Both the position numbers and the translations under genes were made by a program. From Desertimonas flava (GTDB taxonomy: Bacteria > Actinomycetota > Acidimicrobiia > Acidimicrobiales > Ilumatobacteraceae): a stretch of 64,000 nt of DNA. The stretch is from the NCBI RefSeq assembly GCF_003426815.1, contig NZ_QKYK01000002.1, positions 124,001-188,000 of the forward strand. Reading direction: 5' to 3'. Position 1 is the first letter of the stretch; the number at the start of each line of letters is the position of its first letter. Below the pieces are notes generated by a model. The model searched no databases. It was not told where the DNA came from and worked only from the letters and a program-made list of their open reading frames with translations. This document shows positions 5,952 to 21,905 of this stretch, piece by piece.

Positions 5952-5986
5952 CGCCCCGAGATAGTGCCAGGCACTATCTCGGGGCG
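5952..5986 (-). terminator. Perfect palindrome ending the large minus-strand operon
   Basis: GCCCCGAGATAGTGCC pairs perfectly with its complement around one central base; the core reads GTGCCAGGCAC. It lies 3 bp after the stop of the 578-aa gene and has no T-tract. The same core recurs in other intergenic hairpins of the window (21361, 54243, 59840). Confidence 0.7.
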
Positions 5987-5989
5987 CGC

Positions 5990-7726
5990 TCAGCCCGCCG
6001 AACCGCCGTCGGTGAGGGTGTCGAAGCGCAGTGCGGCTGAGGGCAGTTGGCCGGCGGGGCGGGTGCGGTTGGCAGCCCAGACGTGGAGGGTGCCGTCGAT
6101 CCATCGGGCGGCCTGATAGTGACGCTGCACCACGAGGCCGTCGTCGGGCACTTCCTCTTCGGGGATGAGCAGCGACGCTCCCGCCAACAGCGACGTGACG
6201 CTCCCAACGACGTGCTGTCCTCCCGTGACGTCGAGCACGGACCCCCGCGCGAGCACGGTCTGTTCGCCGGGGCCGCGACGGATCGGCAGCAGCGGGACCC
6301 AATGGGGTGGCGGCTCGTGGGCGAGGCGGTAATCGGGTGCGACGTCGGGGTCGCCGGGCGGGTCGGGGGGCCGGGCGTCGCTCAGCGTGAGGCCGACCTG
6401 CATCGGCGACTCGACGACCTGCTCGATGGCCCATCCGACGTTGGCCTGTTCGTCACGCGTCAGCGTGATCTGCTCGACGACCGGGCCGATGAGGGGTTGG
6501 GCGACGCGTGGCGTGAGGAAGAGCAGGTTGCTGATCGGTACGCCTTCGGCCTCGTCGTCGTCGACGGGCATGGCGTGACGGAACAACCCCCACCGGCCGG
6601 AGGTGCCGGCGCCGGCCGGCACGACCAGCGTGCGCACGCCGAACGTGTCGGTGACGACGAGTGACCGGGACTCGACGAGTCGGCCGACGGGCAGCTCGAC
6701 GCCGATGACGAACCAGTCGTTGCCGTAGCCGCTGAGCGTCTCGACGAGCAGCACCTGCGCGAGGTCGGTGCTGGCCGGCTGGATCGCGGCGATGTTGAGC
6801 CGGCCGTCCTCGAACTCCCAGAAGCGGGCGGCGGGGAGGCCCGGGGAGGTGACGGGGGCGGGCACGAGGGTCCGCGTGAAGAGGTCGCCTGCCTCGGACG
6901 CCTTGGTGCCGAGGTTCACCTCGCCGTTGACGTCGAACTCGTACCAGTCGATCGTGTCGCGGTCGTACCGAGGTGCCGTGAGCGTGGTCTCTCCGAACGG
7001 GTCGGCCGAGCGGCGCCCGGCCAGCGACGCCGTGTACTCGAACCGCGTCGGTTGCCAGCACTGGCCGTCTGGCTCGGCGACGTCGAAGAGTGTCGCCAAC
7101 CAGTCGAGCCACGGCGCCGCCGCCTGGCGGATCTCGGCGACGTCCCCCGGCGCGATCTGTGTGTCGAGGCGGGGTACGTCGCGACCGGAGAGCTCGGCGC
7201 GCAGCAGGCGGCCGTCGACGCTGCGGTCGGCGTGGAGGCGGGCGAACGCCGCAGTCGCCGGATCGAGGGCGGCGAGCTGATCGTCGCCGGGCATCGCCAA
7301 CGCGTAGCGGGCGATGAAGTCGGCGCGGTAGTCACGGGATGTCGCCTGCTGAGCGAGCATGGCGAGGAAGTGGCGGCCGGTGTCGACGGCGAGGCGGATG
7401 CCGTCGGCCGACTCGGCGGACGACGGTAACGGGCTGGTCACGCGTTCGATGATCGACTCGAGCGGAGCCGCTGCCGCGTCGAACGGGGCCGCCTCGAGCA
7501 TCGTGTCGGGCGGGATCGGGCCGGCGGTGAAGCGCGTCGGTGCCGCGACGACCCCGCGCCAGCGGGCCAGGATCGGGCTGCCACCGTCGTGGCCGGCGAA
7601 CTCGCCGACCTGCCACTGGCGGGTGAGCAGCCACATCGGATCGCGAAGCGGGGCCGCGGCACCGACCGTGATGTCGCCGCGACGCGGCTGCGGCTCGAGG
7701 CGGGCGAAGGTGGTGATCGACGACAT
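5990..7726 (-). CDS. Unassigned 578-aa protein, last gene of the five-gene operon
   Basis: I do not recognise a named family. The N-terminus is striking: after MSSITTFARLEP comes RDPMWLLTRQWQVGEF and HDGGSPILARWRG, a Trp/Arg-rich segment that looks strongly constrained. The rest is mixed alpha/beta with no membrane segment, signal peptide or obvious catalytic motif; the C-terminal 100 residues are beta-rich (VPLLPIRRGPGEQTVLARGS...). The ATG at 7726 lies one base after the stop of the 1388-aa gene, so translation is probably coupled. It is followed at once by the operon terminator. Its job must be read with its four neighbours. No sign of truncation. Confidence 0.7.
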   Translation of the reverse strand: MSSITTFARLEPQPRRGDITVGAAAPLRDPMWLLTRQWQVGEFAGHDGGSPILARWRGVVAAPTRFTAGPIPPDTMLEAAPFDAAAAPLESIIERVTSPLPSSAESADGIRLAVDTGRHFLAMLAQQATSRDYRADFIARYALAMPGDDQLAALDPATAAFARLHADRSVDGRLLRAELSGRDVPRLDTQIAPGDVAEIRQAAAPWLDWLATLFDVAEPDGQCWQPTRFEYTASLAGRRSADPFGETTLTAPRYDRDTIDWYEFDVNGEVNLGTKASEAGDLFTRTLVPAPVTSPGLPAARFWEFEDGRLNIAAIQPASTDLAQVLLVETLSGYGNDWFVIGVELPVGRLVESRSLVVTDTFGVRTLVVPAGAGTSGRWGLFRHAMPVDDDEAEGVPISNLLFLTPRVAQPLIGPVVEQITLTRDEQANVGWAIEQVVESPMQVGLTLSDARPPDPPGDPDVAPDYRLAHEPPPHWVPLLPIRRGPGEQTVLARGSVLDVTGGQHVVGSVTSLLAGASLLIPEEEVPDDGLVVQRHYQAARWIDGTLHVWAANRTRPAGQLPSAALRFDTLTDGGSAG

Positions 7727-7727
7727 C

Positions 7728-10700
7728 TCAGCTCCCCGCTCCCGCCGCCTGCAAGGCGTTGGGGTTCGTCGACGGCACGTCGCCGTCGGTGTTGAACGCG
7801 AGCACCGTTGTGGGCAGGAACTGGCGGACGTGATCGAGATCGTCCGGGGCCAGCGCGCGGACGTGAGCCAGATCGAGCGTCTCGAGCAGCACTTGGTTGA
7901 GACCGTCCGCGGTCCACGGCTCGCCGATCACGGGGGGCACCGCCAGCAGCAGTGCCTGCGGCGCCGTGGCCGTCGGCGGCTCGTAGTGGAACGCCACGCC
8001 CGTCGTCTCGGCGGGCGCCGGCACGAGCTCGGTCAGCTCGTCGACGAGCAGGCCGGCGAGCGGGCGGCCGGGTTCGATCGTCTCCGCACCGATGAGCACG
8101 AGTGAGGTGGCGCCGTCGACGTAGGAATCGGCGGGCCGGCCGTTCCACGCCGCGCCCGGGCGGTGCGGCGTCTGGGCCAACCGCAACCGCAGGTCCGCAC
8201 CGGCGAGCGCCTCGGCCTCCCGCCGGGCGATGCCGAGGCGCATCAACGGCTCGCGCACGCGCTCCATGCGCATGAGCCACGTGTCGGCCACGAGTGGGTC
8301 CTCGCCGGTCAGCGCCGGGTCATCCCGCGACGCGGCGAGCTCCGCGGCGTTCGCCGCGACGAACTGCGGGAGCGCGACGAAGCCGTCGCCGAGCAACGTG
8401 CGCAGTCGCTGCTGGGCGGCGGCGAGGTCGTCGCCTCCGAGCTGACCTGCTGCGTCGAGCCGGACCTGCAGTGCGGTCCGCGCCCGATCCGCTGCGCCGC
8501 GGATCGACGCGTCGTCCACCGAACCTGTCACGGCGGCAGTGTCGAGCCCGAAGCCCCACGATTCCACCAGGGCGTCGTGGACATCAGTGGTGTCGGTGCC
8601 GGATAGCGACGCGTCGAGGGCGGCGATGGCCGATTGCACGCGCTCGGCGGCTCGGACCGACCGCTGATCCAGCTCGGCGGCGTCCGCGCCCGGCGCCGGA
8701 TCGGCGTGGGGAGGTAGCAGCATCGTGCCGTCGAGTGGGCGGGCGGAGGCGACGAGGCCCGACAGCGACCGTCCGAGCTCCAGGAGGTCGAGCACCTCAC
8801 GGTCGGGACGCAACGACACTCGGGCTCCAGGGGCCGGGTCCGAACGGGCGGCACGGACGGCGCGAGCGGACAGTTCGGCCACGCCGGCATCGCCGGCGCC
8901 GGCGATGCGCACGAAATCGGTGGCCGTCAGGCCGAGGTCGATGAAGGGCACCTCGTGGTTCGTGCCGTCGTCGGCGGACAGGGCGACCAGTAGGGCGGTC
9001 ACCGGACCGAGACACCCGGCCAGCCATGCGTCGAGTGCTGGCTCGCTCGCCGCCCACGGTGAGGAGTCGGCGACCGCCCACCCGCCCGTCGGCGCGGCGT
9101 CGGCGGAGAAGGTGATCGCCACGCGATGGGTCACGGTGACGCCCGTGCGCGGCGTGCGGATGAAGTCGAGGTCGGGCGGTGGGGCGAGCCCGCGATCGAT
9201 GTCGCCGAGCGTGTTGACCGCAGCCGTGAGGTTGCCCCGCACGAAGTGGTGGACCTGCTCGGCCTGCAGGAGATCGGCCGCCGCGTCGACAGCCACGCCG
9301 AGGCGGCGCAGCACGCCCGCTGCCCGGCGGCGCAGCGGCTCGTCCTGCGAGCCGGCGACGAGATGATCGATCGCGTGGCCCTCGCTGTCGAACCAGAGTT
9401 TGTGGAGCGACAGCCCGTCGAGCCGGCGGGCCGCGAGCGGCAGCGACTCCTGTCCCGGCAGGGGCGAGACCTCGCGCGCGTTGTCGATCGAGGCATCGAG
9501 ACCATGTTCGTGGAGATCGCGCTCGACGAGGTATCCGAGCACGGCACCCAGGCTGCGCCCGGCCCGAACCCCATCGAAGAGGCGCTGGGCGAGCCGCACC
9601 CGTTGCGACGTGATGGTGATGGCGAACGGGTCGTCGTCGCCCCCGCCGTGACTGAGGTGGGCATTGCGCAGGAGGGCGGCGACCTCGGCCTGATGGATCG
9701 ACGGAGCGTGGAGGAAGCCCGGGTCGTCGGGCGGCCGATGCAGTGGCAGCTCCTCACCATCGACCGGTTCGGAAACCGTGTCCGCCGACGTCGGGGCGAG
9801 CTGTTCGACCCAGCCGTAGCCGCCGACGAGCACGCCGGTCGGCTGGGTGGTGCGCAACTCGGCGAGACGCCGCGTTGCCAACGACGTGGCCCAGGCGTCC
9901 ACCCGATGTGACGCCGCGTCGAGGGCGTCGGCAACGAGCGGCGTGACCGCGTCGGCACTCGCGTCGGCGACGGCCAGGGCGGCTGAGCGGAACGCCTCGA
10001 TGGCGGCGGCCGCCGGGTCGGTCTCCGACGCCAGCCGCTCTCGTACCGTGACGCCGTCGACCGGTCGCGCCAGCCGTGCCGACCAGGTGAGCGGCGAGCC
10101 GGTGAACCCGAACAGCTCGGCATCGCGGACCGGGGCCACCGTCGCGTCACCGATGAGCTCGGTCGCGGCGGTCGCATGTTCTCGCAACCAGCCCTGTCGC
10201 ACGAGCGCGGCGAGCAGGGAGGTGGGGCGGGTGTCGGCCGCGTCGGCGACGGCATCGAGCGGGGCGTCGAGCAGGGCCCGCAGGGAGGCCGCGTGATCGT
10301 CGCCGACGAGCGGCAGGTCGACCGGCCACGCCGTGGGCTCGTACAGGACCAACGCCGCGGCGACCGTGGTGGGCAGCCCGGCGGCGATGGCGAGCGACTG
10401 CGTGCGAGCGGCGAGCGCCCGCCAGGCATCCGCGGGCACCGCTCGGTCCAGGAAGTCGAGGGCGTTGGCGGCGAACGTCGAACCGAGGGCCCGGCGCAGC
10501 GTCACCCGGTCGGACCGGGCATCGAGGCCGAGCACGTCGACGAGATCGGCGGCAGGATCGCCGCGCCCGACCCTGGAGGCCTTGGACAGCATCGGGCGCC
10601 AGCCGCTCCCGATCAGCCCGGCGACCAGACCACCGAGCCGCGTCTCCCGAGGATCCCCGCGGAAGCGTGTGAGCGCCGTGGTGGGCAACAACCCGTACGG

Positions 10701-11894
10701 CTGACGACCGATGCGGAGCGTCGGCAGCGGGCCGCCCGGACGCAGGAAGGCAGCAGCGTGTTCACGCGCCCAGGCGCAGTCGTCGGCGTCGAGCCCGGCG
10801 ACGCCGAGCCCCACGAACTGGGTGAGCCAGTAGCCCCAGGTCGCCGGCCACAGCGTCCGGGCGACGGCCGCGGCGAGTTCGCCATCGTCGGCGCCGTCCG
10901 CCGGCACGTGGGCGTCGGCCAACCCCATGGCTTGGGCCAGCAGCGAGCTGGGCTCCGCCGGCGACGTCGCCCCGAGGTCGCCCAGGGAGCCGATCTCGGC
11001 GCTCGACCAGCCGGCCGGCGTCGCCTCGGTGTTGTTGGTGAGCGTGCCGGGCGCGACGATGCCCAGCCCGGCGGTGAACCGCTGGGCATCGAGCAGGGCG
11101 GCCAGCCCGTCGGCCCCAGCGGCGGGATCGTCGTTTCGCACCCCGGTGACGAGCAGCAGGTCGACCGGCCCGTCCACAGGAAGGCGCAGCGCCATCCCGA
11201 CCGCCTCGGCCGTGGCGAAGTCGACGAGCCAGTGCATCCCCGTGTCGATCGCCGCCACGTCCTGGTCGTCGGTGGCGGTGTCGGCCTCCGGGTGCACGAG
11301 CGGGGCGTCGATGTCGGGTCCGACGTTGAGGTCGGTGGTGATCGGACGGCCAGTGACCACGGCAACGACCTGGCCGCCGGCGTAGGCGGTCGCCGTCCAG
11401 GCCGAGGGCAGCAGGCGGGCCACGGGCGGGGCCGAGCGCTCGGTCAGCTCGATCGGGCCGAACGTCGGGAGCACCCGCGGATCCTCCGTGTCGGCGACAG
11501 CGTCGGCGGGCCGAGCGTTGGCGTTGTCCGGCCGCGTCGCCCTGGCGATCCAGCCCGCCCGGGCCGGCTCGAACCGTTCGGCGAGCGACTGCCACGCTCG
11601 GCGGCGTCGATCGTCGTCGCGGCCGCAGCGCCACTCGGCGAGCCAGAACTGACGGCCGGCGTCGGCTTCCGCCGCCGTCAGCCGCGGGTCGTGGGCGTCG
11701 ACGTGCACCTGGTCGGGCCAGACCCGCACGAGCAGCTCCCGCCCCCCGGTCGCAGTGCCCACGTAGCGGGTCTCGACGCGGACCGGCAGCAACACGATGG
11801 GGTGGCTCGCCGCCACTGTTGCGGCGAGCACGGGGTCGACCGGCCCGGCCGAACCGGCGGCGATCAGCGGGCCGAGGTCGACGACGGCGCTCAC
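7728..11894 (-). CDS. Unassigned 1388-aa protein of the five-gene operon
   Basis: The start is the GTG at 11894, which overlaps the upstream stop as GTGA. No family recognised. Residues 27-60 read PIVLLPVRVETRYVG followed by LLVRVWPDQVHVDAHDPRLT, a compact motif that looks conserved. The middle is alpha-rich and Ala/Asp-rich, and the C-terminal 150 residues carry SYVDGATSLVLIG and TTGVAFHYEPP..APQALLLAVPP, apparently a separate folded end domain. No signal peptide, no transmembrane helices and no enzyme signature were seen. Length and strict coupling to its neighbours suggest a structural subunit or scaffold; that is inference. Confidence 0.7.
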   Translation of the reverse strand: MSAVVDLGPLIAAGSAGPVDPVLAATVAASHPIVLLPVRVETRYVGTATGGRELLVRVWPDQVHVDAHDPRLTAAEADAGRQFWLAEWRCGRDDDRRRRAWQSLAERFEPARAGWIARATRPDNANARPADAVADTEDPRVLPTFGPIELTERSAPPVARLLPSAWTATAYAGGQVVAVVTGRPITTDLNVGPDIDAPLVHPEADTATDDQDVAAIDTGMHWLVDFATAEAVGMALRLPVDGPVDLLLVTGVRNDDPAAGADGLAALLDAQRFTAGLGIVAPGTLTNNTEATPAGWSSAEIGSLGDLGATSPAEPSSLLAQAMGLADAHVPADGADDGELAAAVARTLWPATWGYWLTQFVGLGVAGLDADDCAWAREHAAAFLRPGGPLPTLRIGRQPYGLLPTTALTRFRGDPRETRLGGLVAGLIGSGWRPMLSKASRVGRGDPAADLVDVLGLDARSDRVTLRRALGSTFAANALDFLDRAVPADAWRALAARTQSLAIAAGLPTTVAAALVLYEPTAWPVDLPLVGDDHAASLRALLDAPLDAVADAADTRPTSLLAALVRQGWLREHATAATELIGDATVAPVRDAELFGFTGSPLTWSARLARPVDGVTVRERLASETDPAAAAIEAFRSAALAVADASADAVTPLVADALDAASHRVDAWATSLATRRLAELRTTQPTGVLVGGYGWVEQLAPTSADTVSEPVDGEELPLHRPPDDPGFLHAPSIHQAEVAALLRNAHLSHGGGDDDPFAITITSQRVRLAQRLFDGVRAGRSLGAVLGYLVERDLHEHGLDASIDNAREVSPLPGQESLPLAARRLDGLSLHKLWFDSEGHAIDHLVAGSQDEPLRRRAAGVLRRLGVAVDAAADLLQAEQVHHFVRGNLTAAVNTLGDIDRGLAPPPDLDFIRTPRTGVTVTHRVAITFSADAAPTGGWAVADSSPWAASEPALDAWLAGCLGPVTALLVALSADDGTNHEVPFIDLGLTATDFVRIAGAGDAGVAELSARAVRAARSDPAPGARVSLRPDREVLDLLELGRSLSGLVASARPLDGTMLLPPHADPAPGADAAELDQRSVRAAERVQSAIAALDASLSGTDTTDVHDALVESWGFGLDTAAVTGSVDDASIRGAADRARTALQVRLDAAGQLGGDDLAAAQQRLRTLLGDGFVALPQFVAANAAELAASRDDPALTGEDPLVADTWLMRMERVREPLMRLGIARREAEALAGADLRLRLAQTPHRPGAAWNGRPADSYVDGATSLVLIGAETIEPGRPLAGLLVDELTELVPAPAETTGVAFHYEPPTATAPQALLLAVPPVIGEPWTADGLNQVLLETLDLAHVRALAPDDLDHVRQFLPTTVLAFNTDGDVPSTNPNALQAAGAGS

Positions 11895-14812
11895 GGGTTC
11901 ACCGCCGGCTCCTGAGGGCGCATGAGGACGGGCACCGGGATGGAGATCTGCGCCGGCAGTTGGCGCAGCCGGACGGCGAGGGCGGCCGAGGTGGCGTCGG
12001 CCGCCGGCGCGTGGGCGACGCCGGTCGGCCCCTTGCCGACGTCGAAGCCGAACCGGGGAGCGCTCGGCTGTTCGGCGATGACGATCGACCACAGCTCGGC
12101 TTCGTCGGCGGGGATGGCGAACCCGAAGTACCGGACGTCGGGATCGAGCGCCCCGGTGAACACGGGAAGCCGCGTGTCGGTGCCGCGTACCGCGGTGACG
12201 ATGGCGTCGGGGAAGCGGCGCAGCAACTCGCTCCGCAGCAGCAGGACGAAGCGCTCGCCGACCGTTGCCGGCGCGCCCAGCGGGCGGTCGCCCCACTCGG
12301 CGAGCGGCTCGAGGTCGACCGGTGCCGTCGGATCGATCGCACTGTCCCAGAACCTCCGGAAGAACGTGGCGTCGAGCGGGGTCGGGTACTCGCGCCAGAG
12401 CAGCTCACGACCGAACTCGTGATTCAGACCGATCATGAACGCCTGCACGAACGTGGAGTTGGTGCGCAGCGCCAGCGCCGTGTTGGCCGGCACCTCGTCC
12501 AGTCCGGGCAGCAGCCACTCTTGGCCGAGGGCGGCGAGCGCGGCAGCCATCGGCGTGGAGAACTGCGGGCTCAGCGTGGCGGCGGCAGGATCCTGCGGCT
12601 CCGGCTGGGGCCCCGCCGGGCCCGGCCCAGTGGGCGGCGACGTGTCCACAACGCCACTGAATGCGGCGCTGAACGTGAGCGACGGTGCGGCGACCGCGAT
12701 CACCTGGTCGAACAGGACGCCGATGTCGAGCGCGGCGCGTGGCGGCCCCGCGACCCGGGACGCGGAGAGGTACCGGGCGAGATGGGTGGGGGCCAACACT
12801 CGGAACGCGGCGGCGTCGCTGCTGTCGGGGAGCTCCGGCGGGTCGGGGTCCGGCGGGTCGGGCTCGGGCAGGTCGGGCGGGAAGTCGGGATCCTCGTCAT
12901 CCCGGGGGCGGCGCAACGACGATCCGAGCTGACGGATGCGGCCGGCGATGCGACCGGCGATGCGGCCGGCAAGGCCACCGGCGGGACCGGGGCGATCGAC
13001 GCGAAGCGGGCCGGTGGTTCGGCCGCGCACGACATCGCGCAGGTCGTCGATGGGACGCAGCCCTCCGCCTCCGCCTCCGCCTCCGGCGCCGAGTGACAGC
13101 GGAGCGACGCGGAACCGTGGTCTGCTCGGCGCGTCCGTGAACGCCGACGGCTGCATCAGCCCCCACGCAAGGTCGGTCGCCGTCGACGTCGCGCCGAGCA
13201 CCTCCAACGTCGCCAGCTCGCCGACATCGATGCGGGGCCCTGTGTGGTCGGCGATGGCGCCGACGCGAGCAAGCACCTCGAGCCCGGCTCGGCCCGGTCC
13301 CTCCGGTGCCGGCGACCCGGTGACGGCGCGGCGGACGGTGGCCCCGCGCGACCTCGTGACGCGCCGGACGCTGACGTCGAAAGTCGCCGTCGGCGAACCG
13401 TCGGTCGTCCCGGCGGTGGGACTCGGACCGTCGCCGAACAGCACTCGAGCCAGCATGGGCGGAGCACCGTCGGCCGCGAGGCGCAGGCGGGGGAGGAGTG
13501 GAGCGACCACGAACGCGCCGACCTCACCGCCGAGGGGTGCGAGGTGGCGGGCCAGCATCCGCTCGGCCACGGCGATCCCGGCATCGGTCAGTCGTCCGAG
13601 GGCCGCGACGGCATGGTGATCGGCCGCCTGGTCCCACGCCGACGCCACGAGGGTCTCCTGATCGCGCTGCACCACCTGCACACCGAGGGCGGCAGCGACG
13701 CGGGCCGCCGGGTCGAGATTGAGCTGCTCGTACCAGCGGGCTGCCGCCGGATCCAGCGTCGGTGGGTCTCGGTACGACGCGCCATAGCGCGGTGGGGCGA
13801 GCACCGGGGCGTCGATCGGGAACAGGTCCGGAGTGTTCAGCACCGTGGTCAGCGCGGACGCGAAGCGACCGGGGAGCGAGGGGTCGGACCAGCTGACCGG
13901 GTCGGCATCGAGGGCTCGGAGCGCGCCGCCGAGCCGGATCTGGGCGTCGTCCGTCCCGATGAGTCCCACGCCGGCGGTCGACAGGTCGATCGGCCGGGAC
14001 CCGAACGTGTCGGGCACGGTCCGGCCGCGGATGGCGAGCGCCAGCGACTGGAAGTCACCGGCCTCCCCGGTCGCGAAGCGCCAGTGGTGGTACACCGGCA
14101 GCTCGACCGGCTCCATGTCGGGCGCAAGGGTCCACGCCGGTCCTTGGGCACCGGCGGAATCGTCGCCGAGCCCGACTCGCCGGCCGACCTCGAACGTGGG
14201 GACGACACACGCGAGGTAGTCGGTCCGGGGGGTGAGCAGACGGCCACAGACGAGCCGCGACAGGTTGCGGGCCGGGTCGCCGTCGAGCGCGGCGAGGATG
14301 GACGGACCGCCCATGTCGGCCGGGGCGACCTGGGCGTGGGCCCACGCCCAGGAGTCGCGGAGGTCGGGAAGCTCGATCTCGGGGCGGGCGGGCGAACCGA
14401 TCCGCAGCACGGGCAGCGGGCCCCGACCGGGCGGGTCGATCCGGACGCCCGGGCCCTCCGCGACCACGACGAGGCACACCCACGGGCGGAGCCGTCCGGC
14501 GAGCGCCGACGCCGGCGTGAACAGCCATGGAAGCGACGGTTCGTCGAACTCGACCACGGCGAGGTAGTTGGATTCGAACGTGCGAGTCCCCGGGGCGGGT
14601 TCGGTGCGGATGATCTGCTGGGGGGCGATCGCCGTCACCTCACCCGGGCCCATCATCCGGACGGTCATCGGCGCCGGCTGGCTGCCGTTCACCGCGACCG
14701 CTGCGGTGGTGGCCACCTCGTTCGCCGGGTGGGCTTCGAGCACGTCTGGCGGCCGGTCGGCCGCGCCGCCCCGGTCGACCCACGGCAGGAACACCAGCGG
14801 GGTGTCGCTCAC
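11891..14812 (-). CDS. Unassigned 973-aa two-part protein of the five-gene operon
   Basis: The start is the GTG at 14812, overlapping the DUF6603 stop as GTGA. The N-terminal part (about 1-570) begins TPLVFLPWVDRGG and has PSLPWLFTPASA and a long alpha/beta region. A low-complexity joint follows at about 574-665: eight Gly in a row, a triple repeat (GLAGRIAGRIAGRIRQ) and an Asp/Pro-rich stretch (DPDFPPDLPEPDPP). The C-terminal domain has a clear constrained block, TFVQAFMIGLNHEFGRELLWREYPTP and FFRRFWDS, around residues 810-850. No secretion signal or membrane segment. I cannot name the family; the two-domain build with a flexible linker is seen directly. Confidence 0.7.
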   Translation of the reverse strand: MSDTPLVFLPWVDRGGAADRPPDVLEAHPANEVATTAAVAVNGSQPAPMTVRMMGPGEVTAIAPQQIIRTEPAPGTRTFESNYLAVVEFDEPSLPWLFTPASALAGRLRPWVCLVVVAEGPGVRIDPPGRGPLPVLRIGSPARPEIELPDLRDSWAWAHAQVAPADMGGPSILAALDGDPARNLSRLVCGRLLTPRTDYLACVVPTFEVGRRVGLGDDSAGAQGPAWTLAPDMEPVELPVYHHWRFATGEAGDFQSLALAIRGRTVPDTFGSRPIDLSTAGVGLIGTDDAQIRLGGALRALDADPVSWSDPSLPGRFASALTTVLNTPDLFPIDAPVLAPPRYGASYRDPPTLDPAAARWYEQLNLDPAARVAAALGVQVVQRDQETLVASAWDQAADHHAVAALGRLTDAGIAVAERMLARHLAPLGGEVGAFVVAPLLPRLRLAADGAPPMLARVLFGDGPSPTAGTTDGSPTATFDVSVRRVTRSRGATVRRAVTGSPAPEGPGRAGLEVLARVGAIADHTGPRIDVGELATLEVLGATSTATDLAWGLMQPSAFTDAPSRPRFRVAPLSLGAGGGGGGGGLRPIDDLRDVVRGRTTGPLRVDRPGPAGGLAGRIAGRIAGRIRQLGSSLRRPRDDEDPDFPPDLPEPDPPDPDPPELPDSSDAAAFRVLAPTHLARYLSASRVAGPPRAALDIGVLFDQVIAVAAPSLTFSAAFSGVVDTSPPTGPGPAGPQPEPQDPAAATLSPQFSTPMAAALAALGQEWLLPGLDEVPANTALALRTNSTFVQAFMIGLNHEFGRELLWREYPTPLDATFFRRFWDSAIDPTAPVDLEPLAEWGDRPLGAPATVGERFVLLLRSELLRRFPDAIVTAVRGTDTRLPVFTGALDPDVRYFGFAIPADEAELWSIVIAEQPSAPRFGFDVGKGPTGVAHAPAADATSAALAVRLRQLPAQISIPVPVLMRPQEPAVNP

Positions 14813-17800
14813 GGCCGCCGCCAGCGATCGTTGAGTCGAGGCGCGCCGACCAGCACCGGCTCGTCGTACCGCTCGCTCTGACCCGTACGGGTCGCCGCCC
14901 GTGCCGCGGCGCCGATACGCAATCCGGCGTCGAAGACATGCGGCGGCAGCGGCTTGGGAGGTGGCGGCGGCTCGTTCTCCGGCTGCTCGATCGGCACGCC
15001 GTCCGGGCCGACGACGATCTCGGTGTAGCCCAGCGGTGAAGCGGCCGCCGCCCCGACGTCGGTGCGGTAGACGTCGCTGCCGAACATCACGCCCGCCTCC
15101 CGTCGGACGAACGCCGGAGCGGCGAGCCGCTCGGCGTCGGTGAGGTCGAAGAAGTGGCCGTCGGGGAAGTCGTCGAACACGGGATCCTTGGGAACGGCCG
15201 CGCCACCCACCGTGGCCGACGTGAACTCGAAGCGCCGGTCCCGAGCCGGAACGAACGCGCCGACCCGGTCGATGTCCCGATCGAGCCGCAGCGGCACGAC
15301 CCCCTGGCGCACCTCGAGTCGCCCGAGCGGATGGAGGAGCAGCGCGTCGCTCGCCGGAGTCGCCCGCAATCCGACGAGCTGCCCGGCGGCGGGCGGAAGT
15401 TCTGTGCGCCAACTGGTCGGATTGGCCAGTCGGGTGAGGATCTCGGCGACGACGTCGATCGTCTCGGTGACGACGTCGCCCGAGCCGCCCACGAGGACCC
15501 GGTCGAACCCGACCGTGTAGTCCCACCACAGGATCCCGAACGTCGCCCGTCCGGCCACGCGGAGGGGGAGCGGGCCTTCGAGCGTGCCCCGCACGTCGAC
15601 CTTGAACAGGTTGTGGCTGCCGCGCTTCAGCTGGACGCCGGCCTGGAAGTCGGCGATGAAGTGCGGTGGCCAGAGCTGGATGAGCACGTCGAAACCGACG
15701 TATCCCTCGATGCTGAACCCGTACGCCGCCGCGTACAGCGCGGCACGAGCGCCGAACTGCACGGTGTTCGACGTCAGCGCGAAGTACGCCTCGACGGTGA
15801 GCTTCGGGTTGTTGCCGGTGGTCAGGGCGATCGTCACCCGCGGCACGACCGGGAAGCCGGTCGGCGGGCGGAACCGTGGGTTGAAGCCACCGACGGCGAG
15901 GGCGAACCCTTCGCCCCTCGCCCGGCGGAACGCGGCGGCGCCGGTGAGCACGAAGCGGCCGCACAGCTTCGACTCGTAGAGCACGGCGTCGACCGCCATT
16001 GCACCCGTGTCGAGGTCGAAGACCCCCACGACGTCGAGGTTGAGCCGGAGGACGGCGTCCTTGTCCTGCGGAAGGGCCGACGAGATGCGCCCGAGGACGA
16101 GCAGCCGGGACTTGTCGGCGACCGAGTCCCGCTCCAGCAGCAGGGCCAGGTCGGCGCGGATGATCGGGTGGCCGGCGCCGAAGAACAGCTTGACGAGGAG
16201 GCCGTAGCTGTGGGTGCCCTGCTGGACCGGGAAGAACGTCCGCAGCGCGCCGACCAGCTCGGGGACGTGTTTGGCCGGATCGGCCGGGAACAGGATGTGG
16301 CGCATCTGGCCGGTCGGCAGGGCGGCGCGCACGGCGTCGACGTTCAGGCGGCGGTTGGCGACGTAGATGAGACCGAAGCCGTCGAACGTGACGAATCCCG
16401 CCTGGAGGTCGAGGTGCTCCACGGTGCCGATGAGGATCAGCGACGAGTCGTCTGCTCCCGCGGTGCCCGGTGACGCCAGGCCGATGCACGTGATCGTGAC
16501 CAGCTTGCCGATCCGCAGGACGAGGACGCCGACGTAGTCGCCGGTCGCCGCGTCGTGCTGGATCGACCCGCCCCCGCTGACCGGTCCGGTCTCGACGTTG
16601 ACGGCGATGCCGCGTGGATACGCGGCACCAACACCGGCTTGGACGATCCCGAGGTTGCGATCCGCGCGTGGCGTGATGGTGTCGGTGCTGGCCTGGAGGC
16701 CGAGTTGATCGACGCTGACGTACACCGGGCCGATCTGTGTGCTGAACGACACCAGCAGCCCGATGGCGACGGCCCGGCCGGTCTCTGGTGCGGTGGCCTT
16801 CCGCCCGGCGAGCCGCACGACGATCTCGTGCACGTTGATGCCGAGCAGCGAGCCGCCGCCGAGCGGCACGGTGGCCTCGAACGTCGGTGGTCCGGCCCGG
16901 CCGGCCGAGTCGAACGGCGGCTCGGCGCCGGCCGCGTCGGCGGCCGACGGCGTGTGGAAGTCCCAGATGAACCCCAGTTGGCTGTCGAAGCCGACGGCCA
17001 GCGAGATCGGCCGGCGCATCGGTCGGCCCCCGAGCAGCTTGCGCATGAACCCGTCGGCGCTCGCCCCGTCGATGACGACCGCTGCCTGGTCGAGGCGGAA
17101 CAGGCCACGCGCTCCGCGGCCCGACAGCGTGAGCGCCGCGGCGATCGGTCCCAGCTCGAGGCGCGTGCCGACGCGGCGGGGCAGGGCGTACGACACGCCG
17201 GTCTCGTTCGGCAGGATCGTCCACGCCACCGACACCTGCGACGTCTCCGCCGTCGCGCTGGCCCGCGAGTCCGTCCCCGAGATCAGCCATGACGCGCCGG
17301 CGTCGCAGCGGATGTCGACCCGGAAGTGCCAGTCCGGATCGCCGGGGTCGTGACCCTTGTTGATCAGCTGGTCGAGCGTGAGCTCACCTCCGACGCTGAG
17401 GAACAGCTGGTGCGGCCGGGCCGGAGTGCCGAGGCGGCGGGGGAGGTAGAGCCAACTGAGCCGCAGTTGCTGCTCGTCATCTCGACCTCGTCGCCGCAGC
17501 GCCAGCGACACCATGCGCCCCGACACCACGTCGGCCGCAGTCGGGCGCACCGGCGAGTCGACGTCGAGGGCGGCGGCGTCCCAGCCGACGATCACGTCGT
17601 GCAAGACGTTCTCGTCGAACTCGTCTTTCACCTGGTCGACGACGGCGATGGCCGCGATCGCTCCCCGGATCAGCCCGTCGATCACGAGGAACGACACGTC
17701 GCGGTCGGTCTCCAGCGTGCTGCCGGCGGCCCCGGGAACCGTGTCGTCGAGATCGTCGAGCGTGCGGCCGGGATTCCAGACGAAGGCGAAGATCGACGCG

Positions 17801-18264
17801 AACGCGTTGAGGAACCGGGCGTGGCCGCGCTCGCCCGGGCCGTGGGTCTCGGTGAGCTCGACGGCCGAGGCGATCGCCTGCATCACGAGGAACAGCTTCG
17901 GCGACGACCGGCGGATGTGGTTGCTCGCCAGGATGTCGAGCAAGCCGTAGGCGAAGGCGTCGCCACGGCTCGGCCAGTCGGCGTCCCAGGCCTCGATCTG
18001 GTCGATGATCGCGCCGAGGATGATCGCCACGTTGGCGACCGCTTCGGCATCGGCCTGGGCGTCGGGGTCGACGTTGTCGCTGTACCGCCGCACCACCTCG
18101 AGGGCACCGGTGGGCAGCGTGAGGTCTCCGGCACCCCCCGGCTTACCGCCGAGGTCGGCGAGCACGGCCTCGCGCACGTCCCGGTGCACGAAGAGGTCGC
18201 CGATGTCGCCGGCGACGTCCGCTGCCCAACCCGCCAGGCGCTGGAGGAACGATCGCTCACTCAT
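14809..18264 (-). CDS. DUF6603 domain protein, 1151 aa
   Basis: Start ATG at 18264. The N-terminal about 250 residues are alpha-helical (starts SERSFLQRLAGWAADVAGDI), and the rest is a long array of amphipathic beta strands. Around residue 790 stands the block GGFNPRFRPPTGFPVVPR...NPKLTVEAYFALTSNTVQFGA, which I take as the DUF6603 signature. A proline-rich stretch lies near the C-terminus. No signal peptide, so an outer-membrane-like barrel role is unlikely; repetitive beta structure fits a large soluble or particle-forming protein. It starts 24 bp after the PhoD-like gene and overlaps the next gene by GTGA. The function of DUF6603 is unknown to me. Confidence 0.75.
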   Translation of the reverse strand: MSERSFLQRLAGWAADVAGDIGDLFVHRDVREAVLADLGGKPGGAGDLTLPTGALEVVRRYSDNVDPDAQADAEAVANVAIILGAIIDQIEAWDADWPSRGDAFAYGLLDILASNHIRRSSPKLFLVMQAIASAVELTETHGPGERGHARFLNAFASIFAFVWNPGRTLDDLDDTVPGAAGSTLETDRDVSFLVIDGLIRGAIAAIAVVDQVKDEFDENVLHDVIVGWDAAALDVDSPVRPTAADVVSGRMVSLALRRRGRDDEQQLRLSWLYLPRRLGTPARPHQLFLSVGGELTLDQLINKGHDPGDPDWHFRVDIRCDAGASWLISGTDSRASATAETSQVSVAWTILPNETGVSYALPRRVGTRLELGPIAAALTLSGRGARGLFRLDQAAVVIDGASADGFMRKLLGGRPMRRPISLAVGFDSQLGFIWDFHTPSAADAAGAEPPFDSAGRAGPPTFEATVPLGGGSLLGINVHEIVVRLAGRKATAPETGRAVAIGLLVSFSTQIGPVYVSVDQLGLQASTDTITPRADRNLGIVQAGVGAAYPRGIAVNVETGPVSGGGSIQHDAATGDYVGVLVLRIGKLVTITCIGLASPGTAGADDSSLILIGTVEHLDLQAGFVTFDGFGLIYVANRRLNVDAVRAALPTGQMRHILFPADPAKHVPELVGALRTFFPVQQGTHSYGLLVKLFFGAGHPIIRADLALLLERDSVADKSRLLVLGRISSALPQDKDAVLRLNLDVVGVFDLDTGAMAVDAVLYESKLCGRFVLTGAAAFRRARGEGFALAVGGFNPRFRPPTGFPVVPRVTIALTTGNNPKLTVEAYFALTSNTVQFGARAALYAAAYGFSIEGYVGFDVLIQLWPPHFIADFQAGVQLKRGSHNLFKVDVRGTLEGPLPLRVAGRATFGILWWDYTVGFDRVLVGGSGDVVTETIDVVAEILTRLANPTSWRTELPPAAGQLVGLRATPASDALLLHPLGRLEVRQGVVPLRLDRDIDRVGAFVPARDRRFEFTSATVGGAAVPKDPVFDDFPDGHFFDLTDAERLAAPAFVRREAGVMFGSDVYRTDVGAAAASPLGYTEIVVGPDGVPIEQPENEPPPPPKPLPPHVFDAGLRIGAAARAATRTGQSERYDEPVLVGAPRLNDRWRRP

Positions 18265-18288
18265 GACACCACGTTCCTGACGACCGGT

Positions 18289-21219
18289 TCACGCCGGTGC
18301 CGCCGGGATCGGCCGCCGCTCGATGACGGCGACGCGCAGCTCGGTGGGCGGCGGTTCAACGACCGGTCCGAGCGGCGCTTCCTGCACGAGGTAGCGATTG
18401 AGCACCGGTAGCTGTGTCTCGGGATCGATCGCCGACGTGTACAGCTCGTGGACGGCGGTGATCGCGTCGTCGGCCTCGTCCTCCGCCCGCTTGCCCTCGA
18501 TGAACCGGCACACGCCGAAGTTCGATCGGAACAGCATCTGGCGGGCGTTGCGCATGCGGGCGAGCGCGGACTGGTGGCGGGCGGCGATCGTCTGCAGGGC
18601 GTCCAACACCTGCTCCGGGTCGGCGAGCTGGGCCTCGACCGCGGCGTCGTCGATGGCGGTCACCCGGATCGGGGTCGGTCGCTCGCTGTCGGGGCGGGTG
18701 TCGAGAAGGGGCCGGGCGCGCCAGCGCCAGTCCGGTGGGTTGGCCGGGTTGAGCCGGGTGGTCAGCTCGGGGAGCGGTTCCGCACCACGAGGGTTGTCGT
18801 CGATCCATCCGTGGGCCGGCAGCAGGACCGGGCTGCGCAGCAGCTTGGCCCGCGTCGCCGCCACGAGGTCGTCGTCGCTGCGGCCGGGCGGCAACAGCAC
18901 GAGGTCCTCGGCCGGGCGGTCCCATCCGAACCGCTCGATGCCGATGCCCATCCGCAACAGTTGCTGCAGGAGCATCGCGCTCTGATCGAGCGCCCGGAGG
19001 TACACCGGCATCACGTTCTTCATGCCGCTGGACGTGAACTGGGCGATGCGCGCCGGTGTGCTCGCGTTTCCGCGCCAGTAGCTCATCAGGTTGCCGGTGG
19101 AGTTGTGGACGTCGCCCGACAACACGACGACGCGCTGGTACTCGGCGAGGCGCTGGAGCAGATGTTCGTACGCCAAGGGCTCGAGCGACCACGTCTCGAG
19201 GGCATCGGGGTTGGTGCCGGGCATCCGGCGCGACCCGCCGACCTTGTCGCTCGTCAGATCGCCCGCCTTCACCATGTCGAAGATGCGGTAGATCGCCGGC
19301 GACACGAGCTCGTCGAGCACGCCGGGGCCGATCACCTGAAGCGGGGCGACCACGACGAGCACCTTGCGCCCGGCAGGCAACGGGGGTGGTGGCAGCTGAT
19401 CGACGAGCGCTTCGGGCGACACGTTGCCCGGTGGTCCGATCTCGGCCGCGTACGAGCGGCGGGTGCGGTTGTCGAGGGCGACGACGCGGTGGCGCGGGCC
19501 GTCGACCGAGAAGTGCCACGTGAGCGGCGGCTTCACCGGGCGGTAGCGGCCATCGAGGTCGGGTGTGTTCTCGAGATCGTGGCCGAACATCTTCGCCACG
19601 GCGACGAACGCGTCGGGGTCCGGGCCCTTGGTCGCGCCGGGTGGGAACAGGCCGGTCGCCCGTTCCAAGAGGTCGCCCGGCAGCTGGCCGCCGAGGTCGG
19701 GACGGGTCGAGTCGGTCGCCTGGTCGTAGCGCCGCGGGTCGTTGCCCCAATCCTGGAACAGGGCGTAGGCGAGCATGCCGTTGGTGAGGATCGTCTGACC
19801 GAGGGGCGATCCCAGGACGCGACGCCGCCACATCGGGTTGAGGAACAGGTCGTCGGTCAGGTCGTGGTCGTCGAGGATCATGTAGGTGGGCACGTTGGCC
19901 AGCACCCGCTGGACCTTGCCGAGGCCGAGCAGGAAGTCCCGGTGCACCCGGTGGCTGTGCGCTCGCGCTTTCTCCGCCTTGCGTTCGTTGGCCTCGGCGT
20001 CCTCACCGGCGTCCTTGGCCCGCGCGGCGAGCGTGTCCTTGTCGGCGTAGAGATGCTCGGGGATGCGATCGGGGAAGTCGGCGAACGGCCACGAGATCGG
20101 CCCGAGCTCCTCGGGGACGTCCAGCCAACGCAGCTGCGATCGTTGCGTGTCGCCGACGCGGAGCACCTCGGCGCCGGGCACGAGCTCGCCCCAGACGGCC
20201 GGGCTCCACACCATCAGATGGAGGGCGGCGAACTCGCCGAACGAGATCAGGTGGTTGGCGCCGTCGATGCTCGTGAACTGAGCGTTGCGCTGGGTCAGAT
20301 CGAGGCGTTGACCCACCGGGAAGTGGTCGGCGCCGGCGGGAAGGTCACCCTGGGCTGCGGTCTCGGCGGCCGGTTCCGGCTCGTATGCCGCGGTCGGGTC
20401 GGAGTCGGTGGGCAGTTGCCCGGCCTTGCGGCGCAGGACGGTCTTCACCTTGACCCGCTCGATCGGCGTCCCGGCGGGGCCACCGTCCCGGCCGATCAGC
20501 TCGACGCCGAGCTCGGCGACGCGCAGCATCATCACGGTGTCGACGTCGTCGGCGTAGATCTGGTCGCCCCCGAGGAACAGCTGGTGGATGCGCGTCCGGG
20601 GGTCCCCGACGGCGATCGCCGCGGACGGCTCGCCGGAGTCGGGATCGGGCTCGGGCAACGGGGGATCGTCGAGCGGGAACGCGAGCACGTCGTCGATCCA
20701 GGCGAGTGCGTCGCCGTCGTCGTAGCCGGGTCGACGGCACGAGCCGTAGGCGATCCGCAGGTGCTCGAGCTCCGACGGAGGCAGGGCGAAGCTCGGCAGC
20801 ATGCGGTCGTCGTAACCGAGTGGCGGCACTTCGACGCCGTTGACGGTGCGGGTGGCGAGCATGCCGCGCTCACCCAGGCCGAGCACCTCCCCACCGGCGT
20901 TGATGATGACGTCGTAGGAGTAGAGGCGATCGGGCAGGAAGACCTTCGCCGACGCCGGCGGGATCCTTGCCGTCACCAATCCGAGGTAGAGGTGCTCGCC
21001 CACCCGGATGGCATCGGCCCCGGGACGCGGTGGCGGCGCCGATGGATCGGGCGGGTCGGCGCTGCTGACGAACACCGGGTTCGTCGAGTCGTGGGCGACC
21101 CTGCCCTCCCAGACCCGCAGCTCCAGCTCGGCCGGCTCACTGAACGCCATCCAGACCGCGACCGTTCCGGGATCGACACGGCGCAGGATCGGCCCGGCGA
21201 GAATGAGCGGAAGCTCCAT
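18289..21219 (-). CDS. PhoD-like metallophosphoesterase, unusually long (976 aa)
   Basis: The PhoD/alkaline-phosphatase-D metal-site motifs are present in order: RIAYGSCRRPGYDD, GGDQIYADD (about 216-224), YMILDDHDLTDD (about 446-457) and LSGDVHNS (about 698-705), plus DNRTRRSY between the last two. The family is usually 450-600 aa; here long inserts, including a charged coiled-coil-like segment at about 396-416, and a C-terminal extension nearly double it. No Tat or Sec signal precedes MELPLILAGPIL, whereas classical PhoD is exported, so a cytoplasmic role on a nucleotide- or lipid-type phosphodiester is possible. The ATG at 21219 has GAGGGAG 5-6 bases upstream. It is the first gene of the operon. 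Confidence 0.85.
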   Translation of the reverse strand: MELPLILAGPILRRVDPGTVAVWMAFSEPAELELRVWEGRVAHDSTNPVFVSSADPPDPSAPPPRPGADAIRVGEHLYLGLVTARIPPASAKVFLPDRLYSYDVIINAGGEVLGLGERGMLATRTVNGVEVPPLGYDDRMLPSFALPPSELEHLRIAYGSCRRPGYDDGDALAWIDDVLAFPLDDPPLPEPDPDSGEPSAAIAVGDPRTRIHQLFLGGDQIYADDVDTVMMLRVAELGVELIGRDGGPAGTPIERVKVKTVLRRKAGQLPTDSDPTAAYEPEPAAETAAQGDLPAGADHFPVGQRLDLTQRNAQFTSIDGANHLISFGEFAALHLMVWSPAVWGELVPGAEVLRVGDTQRSQLRWLDVPEELGPISWPFADFPDRIPEHLYADKDTLAARAKDAGEDAEANERKAEKARAHSHRVHRDFLLGLGKVQRVLANVPTYMILDDHDLTDDLFLNPMWRRRVLGSPLGQTILTNGMLAYALFQDWGNDPRRYDQATDSTRPDLGGQLPGDLLERATGLFPPGATKGPDPDAFVAVAKMFGHDLENTPDLDGRYRPVKPPLTWHFSVDGPRHRVVALDNRTRRSYAAEIGPPGNVSPEALVDQLPPPPLPAGRKVLVVVAPLQVIGPGVLDELVSPAIYRIFDMVKAGDLTSDKVGGSRRMPGTNPDALETWSLEPLAYEHLLQRLAEYQRVVVLSGDVHNSTGNLMSYWRGNASTPARIAQFTSSGMKNVMPVYLRALDQSAMLLQQLLRMGIGIERFGWDRPAEDLVLLPPGRSDDDLVAATRAKLLRSPVLLPAHGWIDDNPRGAEPLPELTTRLNPANPPDWRWRARPLLDTRPDSERPTPIRVTAIDDAAVEAQLADPEQVLDALQTIAARHQSALARMRNARQMLFRSNFGVCRFIEGKRAEDEADDAITAVHELYTSAIDPETQLPVLNRYLVQEAPLGPVVEPPPTELRVAVIERRPIPAAPA

Positions 21220-21357
21220 TCGATCTCCCTCGAACAGCGGCGCGGCGAACGTAGCCCCGCGTCCTCGGCGCCGCTGACAATTACCCGCCAACGCGTGCTC
21301 GGCGCGGCGAGACAGTGCCTGGAGCCTGCGCGGAGATGTGTATGGCGCTGCCGTTAC

Positions 21358-21453
21358 CGGAGGTGCCTGGCACCGTAGGTGAGGGCGATGCGAAGCGAGC
21401 CGTCATCGGAGGTGCCTGGCGCCATAGGCGACGGCGATGCGAAGCGAGCCGTC
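21358..21453. repeat. Tandem repeat, two 47-bp units
   Basis: Units 21358-21404 and 21407-21453 differ at only a few bases. Each starts CGGAGGTGCCTGGC and ends GCGATGCGAAGCGAGCCGTC. The GGTGCCTGGCACC part of the first unit is itself palindromic. Confidence 0.85.
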
Positions 21454-21473
21454 CGCTGGTCGCCGTCCCAACC

Positions 21474-21515
21474 GGAGGGTAAATACCGGACGCTTCGGTG
21501 GGGTATGTACCCTCC
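21474..21515. repeat. Hairpin repeat copy 2 of 3
   Basis: GGAGGGTAAATACC pairs with GGTATGTACCCTCC (one mismatch) around a 14-base loop containing GACGCTTCGGTGG. It is followed by CGTCCGCACGTGGCGGTG, also shared with the next copy 84 bp on. Confidence 0.85.
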
Positions 21516-21557
21516 CGTCCGCACGTGGCGGTGACCGGCCACCCGGCCCGCCCGACC

Positions 21558-21599
21558 GGAGGGTAAATACCGGACGCTTCGGTGGGGTATTTACCCTCC
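21558..21599. repeat. Hairpin repeat copy 3 of 3
   Basis: A perfect 14-bp stem, GGAGGGTAAATACC with GGTATTTACCCTCC, and the same CGCTTCGGTGG loop and right flank as copy 2. The AT-containing arms stand out against the GC-rich surroundings. Confidence 0.85.
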
Positions 21600-21905
21600 C
21601 GTCCGCGCGTGGCGGTGTCCCCGCGGCGAGAAAGGGCCCGGGAGTACGCGCGGATCGTGACCATCCACCGATCGTGTGTATGGCCCGTGTTCTCGTGACG
21701 GCAGACACCCATGTACACGACGGGGGAGTTCACCGTCATGATCCACATCACCCACCGCCTCACCGACAACGAGGTGCCCTCTCCGCGAACCCCCTAGGCA
21801 CCATCAGTAACGCGTCCAGGGTTCCCGACGGACCTATCCGTCCGCCTCCCTGGCACTCTCACCGCCGCTCACGATCCGGGCGACGGTCCGGCGGGTGGTG
21901 CCGGA

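Follow-up and report, generated by a model that had tools for sequence, protein, structure and literature searches.

A five-gene operon of Desertimonas flava very probably joins a constant chassis to an exchangeable hydrolase and may serve in biological conflict

What might be made by five very large genes that stand head to tail in one operon, and of which only two products can be given a family name? The question is raised by a 64,000-nucleotide stretch of the 6.2 Mb assembly of Desertimonas flava (contig NZ_QKYK01000002.1, positions 124,001 to 188,000; hereafter the window), which carries genes P0001 to P0005 with junctions of +24, -4, -4 and +1 bp in gene order. The gene lengths and tight junctions given in a preliminary description of this DNA were recovered exactly when the open reading frames (ORFs) and their junctions were re-derived. 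Comparison with relatives suggested that the last four genes, encoding a DUF6603 protein and three unnamed families that we call P3, P4 and P5, are very probably a constant chassis, in front of which the first gene supplies an exchangeable hydrolase. That the operon as a whole encodes a modular hydrolase-carrying assembly of this design, used in biological conflict, is a reading whose chances we place slightly above even. At the level of sequence, the comparison established the chassis gene order, a patchy spread over bacteria and archaea on chromosomes and plasmids, exchange of the enzyme, catalytic motifs in most enzyme classes and gene fusions.

The argument for a constant chassis begins with gene order. 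Iterated profiles placed DUF6603 before P3 in 53/53 loci, P3 before P4 in 78/78 and P4 before P5 in 95/95, on a single strand throughout, the denominators being loci in which both neighbours were found; loci with a single member were mostly truncated, either where the contig stops or at the limit of the 10-kb flank. Any two neighbours among the last four genes keep this order wherever both can be seen, so that their association is not a matter of chance. P4 and P5 form one ORF in a Pyrinomonadaceae metagenome-assembled genome (L038), and P3 and P4 are divided into separate genes in Rhizobium and Halobellus. The suggestion that the strict order reflects one complex is thus upheld indirectly, by the invariant order together with the P4-P5 and hydrolase-DUF6603 fusions, and the last four genes do stay together among relatives, as the neighbourhood comparison proposed in the preliminary description was meant to find out.

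The first position presents a different picture. Upstream of DUF6603, 61 stretches were fetched and the front gene was classed by Pfam, profile and motif. PhoD-like enzymes occupied 27 of them (10 from the window's nearest clade), followed by PLD (6), M64 (4), S8 (4), trypsin-like (3), DUF2515 (2), M14 (1) and metallo-beta-lactamase (1) proteins; in 3 more an alpha/beta-hydrolase-type region was fused to DUF6603 itself (L135 and L159 by Pfam; L188 by profile only, on a contig without P5), and 10 were unassigned. The DUF6603 copy behind the PhoD stretch L186 lies apart from P5, and two further stretches, L189 (PhoD) and L195 (PLD), are at contig ends. Pfam cut-offs were exceeded by 4/4 M64 (short matches), 3/4 S8, 3/6 PLD, 1/3 trypsin-like (L174) and the one M14 protein, and class labels below the cut-off rest on profile similarity to the passing members. 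Catalytic motifs were found in most classes, with an HExxH-type motif in 4/4 M64, at least two HKD motifs in 6/6 PLD and GDSG in 9/9 trypsin-like ORFs. When ten slot profiles (M14 and the fused alpha/beta hydrolase left out) were compared profile to profile, the different classes proved unrelated. Eleven plasmid loci had PhoD twice (L010, L012) and a trypsin-like enzyme twice (L015, L022). The metallo-beta-lactamase ORF (E 2.8e-5) stands before a second DUF6603 gene of Micromonospora rubida (L158, G242:C9), a genome with a single P5 match, which lies on a different contig.

The exchange can be followed within a single lineage. In a tree of concatenated P3-P4-P5 sequences from 12 actinobacterial cassettes and 3 outgroup rows, the 12 members formed a clade with a support of 100/100 that holds M64, S8, trypsin-like and M14 (L080) enzymes; for each of the M64, S8 and trypsin-like classes a minimum of two changes on starred branches is needed, and a single clade was recovered in 0/200 bootstrap trees. 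As these three classes interchange within one actinobacterial clade, the enzyme changes while the chassis stays the same. A larger tree of 58 rows contains doubtful labels, the PhoD label of L073 having been taken from L186, a different DUF6603 copy of that genome, and the labels of L038 (from L195) and L077 (from L189) resting on contig ends that are not joined; the 12+3-row tree used for the claim of swapping includes none of the three. Additionally, the Nitrospira genome G223 carries two P5-bearing cassettes, with PhoD before one (L148) and PLD before the other (L177), the P5 match of the PhoD cassette being reported with one TAG inside. The phosphoesterase, which had been described as leading the operon, does not define it and is one of several exchangeable enzymes.

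A docking domain common to all hydrolases was not found with hhalign. A C-terminal stretch of about 100-120 residues is common to the L169 subtilase and the trypsin-like enzymes (blastp E down to 2e-17) and may be a docking domain. Before DUF6603, the haloarchaeal plasmids L016 and L019 carry an unassigned family (ORFs of 925 and 932 aa, the L019 gene with a membrane-helix-like segment) and L020 a shorter related ORF; this family may be another occupant of the slot.

In the window the slot holds a PhoD-like protein. P0001 scored 19.4 bits against the Pfam PhoD profile PF09423, below the gathering cut-off of 27, and its match to DUF7800 was likewise below the cut-off. It contains GSCR at 159, GDQIYAD at 218, DDHDL at 450 and SGDVH at 701, which are forms of the metal-site motifs of PhoD enzymes, and the four motifs are kept in 28, 28, 29 and 24 of 30 slot PhoD sequences, respectively. 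The archaeal homologue in the same slot of Salinigranum passes PF09423 (40.5 bits vs 27). A profile search of the Protein Data Bank (PDB) with 15 slot PhoDs retrieved no PhoD; a TIR-adapter chain matched by the P0001 profile (E 0.025) was set aside as weak. Divergence of PhoD and of P5 was correlated (Spearman 0.54, 0/2000 permutations; 0.28 and 40/2000 after thinning to 13 dissimilar rows), as would be expected if both mostly travel together.

Naming of the other four proteins was less rewarding. P0002 is a member of DUF6603, reaching 323.9 bits against a cut-off of 27 over positions 7-501 of the 502 in the PF20248 profile. P0003, P0004 and P0005 had no usable match in Pfam, NCBIfam, PHROGs or PADLOC, and NCBIfam, PHROGs and PADLOC yielded nothing useful for any of the five proteins. 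Thus the statement that only the PhoD-like enzyme and DUF6603 can be named held, strongly for DUF6603 and below the Pfam cut-off for PhoD; profile searches with the three remaining proteins found no well-described family, and the three motifs that had been singled out in them as constrained all fall in blocks kept among relatives. No strongly hydrophobic stretch of 19 residues was present in P0001-P0005 (hydropathy maxima 1.3 to 2.0; no dedicated signal-peptide predictor was applied), values that agree with the reported lack of signal peptides and membrane helices. Among 34 proteins of the annotated genes of seven plasmid loci, a crude hydropathy threshold scan identified 0 signal-like N-termini and 1 membrane-helix-like segment.

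Relatives of the cassette are widespread and patchily distributed. A species-level genome collection yielded 581 pattern-matched stretches, of which 496 encoded P0005 relatives, and the best 80 of these 496, i.e., the best matches to the window, were analysed as genome loci; they come from Actinomycetota, Pseudomonadota, Nitrospirota, Acidobacteriota, Chloroflexota, Myxococcota, Bacillota and, once, Verrucomicrobia. DUF6603 was looked for in all but 27 of the 80, and upstream stretches were fetched for the loci so searched except L060; those left out mostly had short contigs or too little upstream sequence, and some were not selected. DUF6603 was found in 27/27 and 26/26 genomes chosen for P5 (52 distinct). 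Translated searches (tblastn) of plasmids returned P0005 relatives in 14 records, DUF6603 in 14 and P0003 in 13; the 13 records common to all three belong to Streptomyces, Nocardia, Rhizobium, Paraburkholderia, Gemmatirosa and four haloarchaea, and an Embleya plasmid gave a weak DUF6603 match only. Within the phylum, DUF6603 occurred in 12/396 genomes, and within the class P0005 occurred in 4/198 (one weak), the window's own genome being counted in both. Eleven other actinobacterial genomes with DUF6603 had a P5 match in 7 cases (one very short), 4 of them on the contig of DUF6603 with 8-9 kb between the matches.

The closest chassis relatives among the best 80 loci, at 63-68% identity, are from Cellulomonas, Micropruina, Propionicimonas and Actinotalea, and the sampled genomes of the window's own family gave no match. 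As the nearest relatives lie in other groups, the cassette has likely spread by horizontal transfer, to judge from these sequence comparisons. A viral origin was considered and set aside, since a first scan of IMG/VR found no relative, a second found one short end fragment, and the sole phage-labelled carrier is probably bacterial. This record, MT835531.1 (L014, 'Bacteriophage sp.', an UNVERIFIED fecal scaffold), has P3, P4 and P5 with a DUF6603 end at one of its ends and is more likely a putative bacterial contig. In Candidatus Nitrospira defluvii (L055/L137) and in L054, L057 and L058, two DUF6603 genes lie about 6 kb apart, PLD preceding the first of them, and the P3 and P4 domains are separated by an additional 1.3 kb or so.

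Structure prediction gave unequal results for the two chassis proteins modelled. The AlphaFold2 model of P0005 is confident, with a predicted local distance difference test (pLDDT) score of 82.2 and a predicted template modelling (pTM) score of 0.81, and combines helices and strands; Foldseek returned nothing below E 0.05 and VIA-align a best Z of 3.9, which for a predicted model does not prove a new fold. Profiles of the chassis proteins and of P0001 gave no usable match in the PDB, a P0005 profile match to 3kdq (E 0.01) having been set aside as weak. The model of the DUF6603 protein is weak (mean pLDDT 59.5, pTM 0.38), with a helical N-terminus and many long strands, and hydropathy differed by more than 2 units between the two faces in 12 of 22 strands examined. 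Foldseek with this weak model retrieved ushers, LptD and porins (best E 4.4e-6, template modelling (TM) score at most 0.26 in the rows shown), and VIA-align aligned residues about 460-805 with Z 10-12 (up to 12.2) at a root-mean-square deviation (rmsd) of 6-12 A. Given the poor model, low TM and high rmsd, the likeness to barrels may reflect merely many antiparallel strands. We tentatively read DUF6603 as a large antiparallel meander, possibly active on membranes or lipids.

Further modules decorate the chassis in single lineages. Of seven long P3 proteins, FG-GAP-like matches were above the Pfam cut-off in 2 (L010, L077), below it in 3 (L072, L075, L081) and absent in 2. In Polyangium the P5 frame bears Kelch repeats towards its C-terminus, in the C-terminal part, and in Salinigranum P5 has a lamin tail domain, other haloarchaeal lamin-tail labels being those of the record annotation; the use of a lamin tail domain described in PMC5118699 is unrelated. 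The first protein of Streptomyces longwoodensis carries a peptidoglycan-binding domain and none of the PhoD motifs. Downstream of P5, a WD40 gene and an S8 gene each follow in single plasmids, a Nitrospira locus (L066) has an ORF with OLD-like nuclease domains about 67 bp away, and ten regions tested contained unrelated families or none.

Several points count against the reading as a modular hydrolase-carrying assembly. The sample is biased, consisting of the best matches to the window, with 10 of the 27 PhoD stretches from its closest clade. Ten of the 61 upstream stretches lack an assigned enzyme, seven of these being second DUF6603 copies and one a contig end; L146, L152, L181, L183 and L184 had no usable Pfam match, and L160, L162, L164, L187 and L190 are unassigned without a Pfam test. 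The trypsin-like label passes Pfam only in L022 and L174 and depends on profile similarity and GDSG in L138, L168 and L015, and the M64 matches, which pass the cut-off, cover about 40 of 302 profile positions at best. The alpha/beta-hydrolase regions showed no GxSxG with a narrow pattern, and in the subtilases HGT was seen and the serine motif was not found by pattern (Pfam S8 E-values 1e-36 to 1e-37, three tested). All four PhoD motifs are missing from L010, a PhoD relative of Streptomyces. Among the chassis genes, Streptomyces anthocyanicus (L011), the one clear degenerate case, has P5 with a short P4 remnant and no P3. Nitrospira sp. UBC2 (G240, L073) has P3-P4-P5 in one place and its only DUF6603 match, a partial one, about 1 Mb off; this distant copy (L186) has a PhoD-like gene beside it, and the arrangement is a split or decaying cassette. 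With that split, and with a P5 profile that found nothing in 4 of the 11 actinobacterial DUF6603 genomes, the cassette is not always complete. Finally, the five window proteins contain no NTPase match.

Altogether, these observations are consistent with a mechanism in which the four giant proteins DUF6603, P3, P4 and P5 would form the constant chassis and the first gene would supply its hydrolase, here PhoD-like, which the chassis would keep inactive or aim. The clade-specific add-ons (FG-GAP-like, Kelch, lamin-tail and the WD40 protein that follows) would act as recognition parts, amphipathic DUF6603 strands would bind a membrane, lipid or partner, and the enzyme would damage a rival or invader. 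We infer that the five products form one particle and that biological conflict is its most likely role, in which defence is possible. Two further suggestions of the preliminary description, a phosphodiester-linked assembly and a storage body, gained no supporting result. Subtilases and the M14, M64 and PhoD families are usually secreted enzymes and some of the add-on domains are typical of extracellular proteins, for which reason action after release or delivery is tentatively favoured over an intracellular switch.

Delivery could take the form of a toxin-complex-like particle, built in the cytosol and freed by lysis or another route, that binds another cell through its add-ons and moves its hydrolase across or into the envelope of that cell; this delivery half of the conflict reading, taken jointly with DUF6603 acting as a membrane-active beta structure, is a tentative proposal whose chances are well short of even. 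Giant size, the lack of an NTPase match, the add-ons found in single clades or strains (FG-GAP-like, Kelch, lamin-tail and one peptidoglycan-binding module) and the resemblance of the DUF6603 model to usher, LptD and porin meanders all point in its direction, against which stand the poor quality of that model with its low TM and high rmsd, and the fact that no linked lysis or secretion gene was shown, secretion genes having had no systematic search. Somewhat less probable is an intracellular conflict switch, in which a cytosolic chassis would sense an invader such as a phage or plasmid and set the hydrolase free, so that the host cell is killed or disabled, in the manner of the systems of multicellular bacteria that pair a constant component with a variable effector. 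Cytosolic action would agree with the 0/34 signal-like N-termini, the OLD-like nuclease ORF close to the Nitrospira P5 and the patchy, partly plasmid-borne occurrence, and variable effectors including calcineurin-type phosphoesterases and peptidases are described for such systems in PMC7159879; however, P0001-P0005 match no NTPase, vWA or GTPase family and no PADLOC model, and an M14 carboxypeptidase would be odd as a suicide enzyme.

More peaceful roles fare worse. A scavenging or housekeeping scaffold organising degradative enzymes for phosphate, peptides and lipids is conceivable, since PhoD, PLD, lipase-like and peptidase enzymes might each serve nutrition; we regard it as quite improbable, as export signals were absent by the crude scan, and a patchy, partly plasmid-borne spread with enzyme swapping would fit conflict better. 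That the genes are unrelated mobile neighbours, merely adjacent, is hardly credible: plasmid location in some strains and DUF6603 without P5 would suit it, but the invariant order across phyla and domains and the occurrence of fusions already contradict it. Returning to the conflict assembly that we prefer, a bolder version would be an NTP-independent weapon of bacteria and haloarchaea, a DUF6603/three-protein particle built in the cytosol and then released, with exchangeable propeller or wall-binding recognition, whose large amphipathic DUF6603 beta structure would place the hydrolase onto or through the target membrane; in this detail it is unlikely. Should the cassette prove to be a weapon or a means of defence, it would be a large one that has gone unrecognised, with a range that takes in soil actinobacteria, Nitrospira and haloarchaea. 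DUF6603 and three giant families that lack a name become parts of one widely transferred cassette. The swap on a fixed chassis is a natural experiment of evolution and makes the function open to test, each chassis subunit being expected to co-purify with the hydrolase of its own operon.

The features of the operon are collected in the table below.

Table. Genes and other features of the operon (window positions)
Feature	Position	Strand	Description	Basis
P0001	18289..21219	-	976 aa, PhoD-like metallophosphoesterase; occupies the exchangeable hydrolase slot	motifs; homologues before DUF6603
P0002	14809..18264	-	1151 aa, DUF6603, chassis protein 1	PF20248, 2.2e-96
DUF6603 domain of P0002 (residues 475-1044)	15133..16842	-	predicted long antiparallel strands, partly amphipathic	
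P0003	11891..14812	-	973 aa, chassis protein 2 (P3), no known family; FG-GAP-like mid-region in longer relatives	
P0004	7728..11894	-	1388 aa, chassis protein 3 (P4), no known family	
P0005	5990..7726	-	578 aa, chassis protein 4 (P5), no known family; confident predicted fold, no clear PDB match	
Perfect palindrome after the last gene	5952..5986	.	35 nt; genome-wide repeat copy, possible transcript end	

The operon had been described as ending in a perfect palindrome, and its 17-bp arms (5952-5968 and 5970-5986, 1 nt between) are indeed 100% complementary. The core GTGCCWGGCAC occurs at 143 genome sites vs 7 for the reversed control, which identifies the palindrome as a copy of a dispersed repeat. 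It was not among the predictions of a terminator scan; a transcript end there is possible. Two tandem 49-nt units at 21350-21447, 88% alike and with the GGTGCCTGGCACC palindrome or a variant, are related to this dispersed palindrome. About 240-400 bp upstream of the operon, at 21462-21620, are two copies, 92% identical, of a 75-nt palindromic repeat of the GGAGGGTAAATACC...GGGGTATTTACCCTCC type, whose 32-nt core was found at 44 genome places (up to 3 mismatches, both strands) vs 0 for the reversed control.

How does the cassette compare with known systems? Like PhoD-like phosphodiesterases (PF09423), P0001 keeps the expected motifs; it differs in scoring below the cut-off, in its length of 976 aa, in having no evident signal peptide and in being tied to a cassette. 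P0002 is a member of DUF6603, and the description of that family gives no function. What the cassette has in common with toxin complexes and lysis-released modular toxins is very large soluble subunits that lack signal peptides, modular parts, an enzymatic component that varies and propeller-like repeats. It differs in that its enzyme is encoded by a first gene of its own or forms one protein with DUF6603, and Pfam detected no TcA, TcB or TcC (Rhs) domain in P0001-P0005. For contractile injection systems and tailocins, no sheath, tube or baseplate match was obtained in the five proteins with Pfam or PHROGs, the flanks not being part of that search.

Neither DUF6603 nor PF20248 is mentioned by name in any paper of the literature searched, and thematic searches of titles and abstracts returned nothing on the cassette, most subscription journals and bioRxiv lying outside the scope of both; no description that links DUF6603 to P3-P5 and a hydrolase slot was found in that literature. 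The nearest precedent in principle is the group of NTP-dependent conflict systems (Kaur et al. 2020, PMC7159879), in which a conserved core is linked to an effector that varies and includes phosphoesterases and peptidases, with beta-propeller parts, the cores being MoxR-vWA, GTPase or EACC1-caspase proteins. The window cassette also has a constant core and a variable effector; its core differs from those given there in consisting of DUF6603 and three unnamed giant families, MoxR/vWA, GTPase and EACC1 not being matched in P0001-P0005 by Pfam or PADLOC. As the chassis fits none of the known kinds of system tested, we call the cassette new in kind, built on a principle of constant core and variable effector that is already known.

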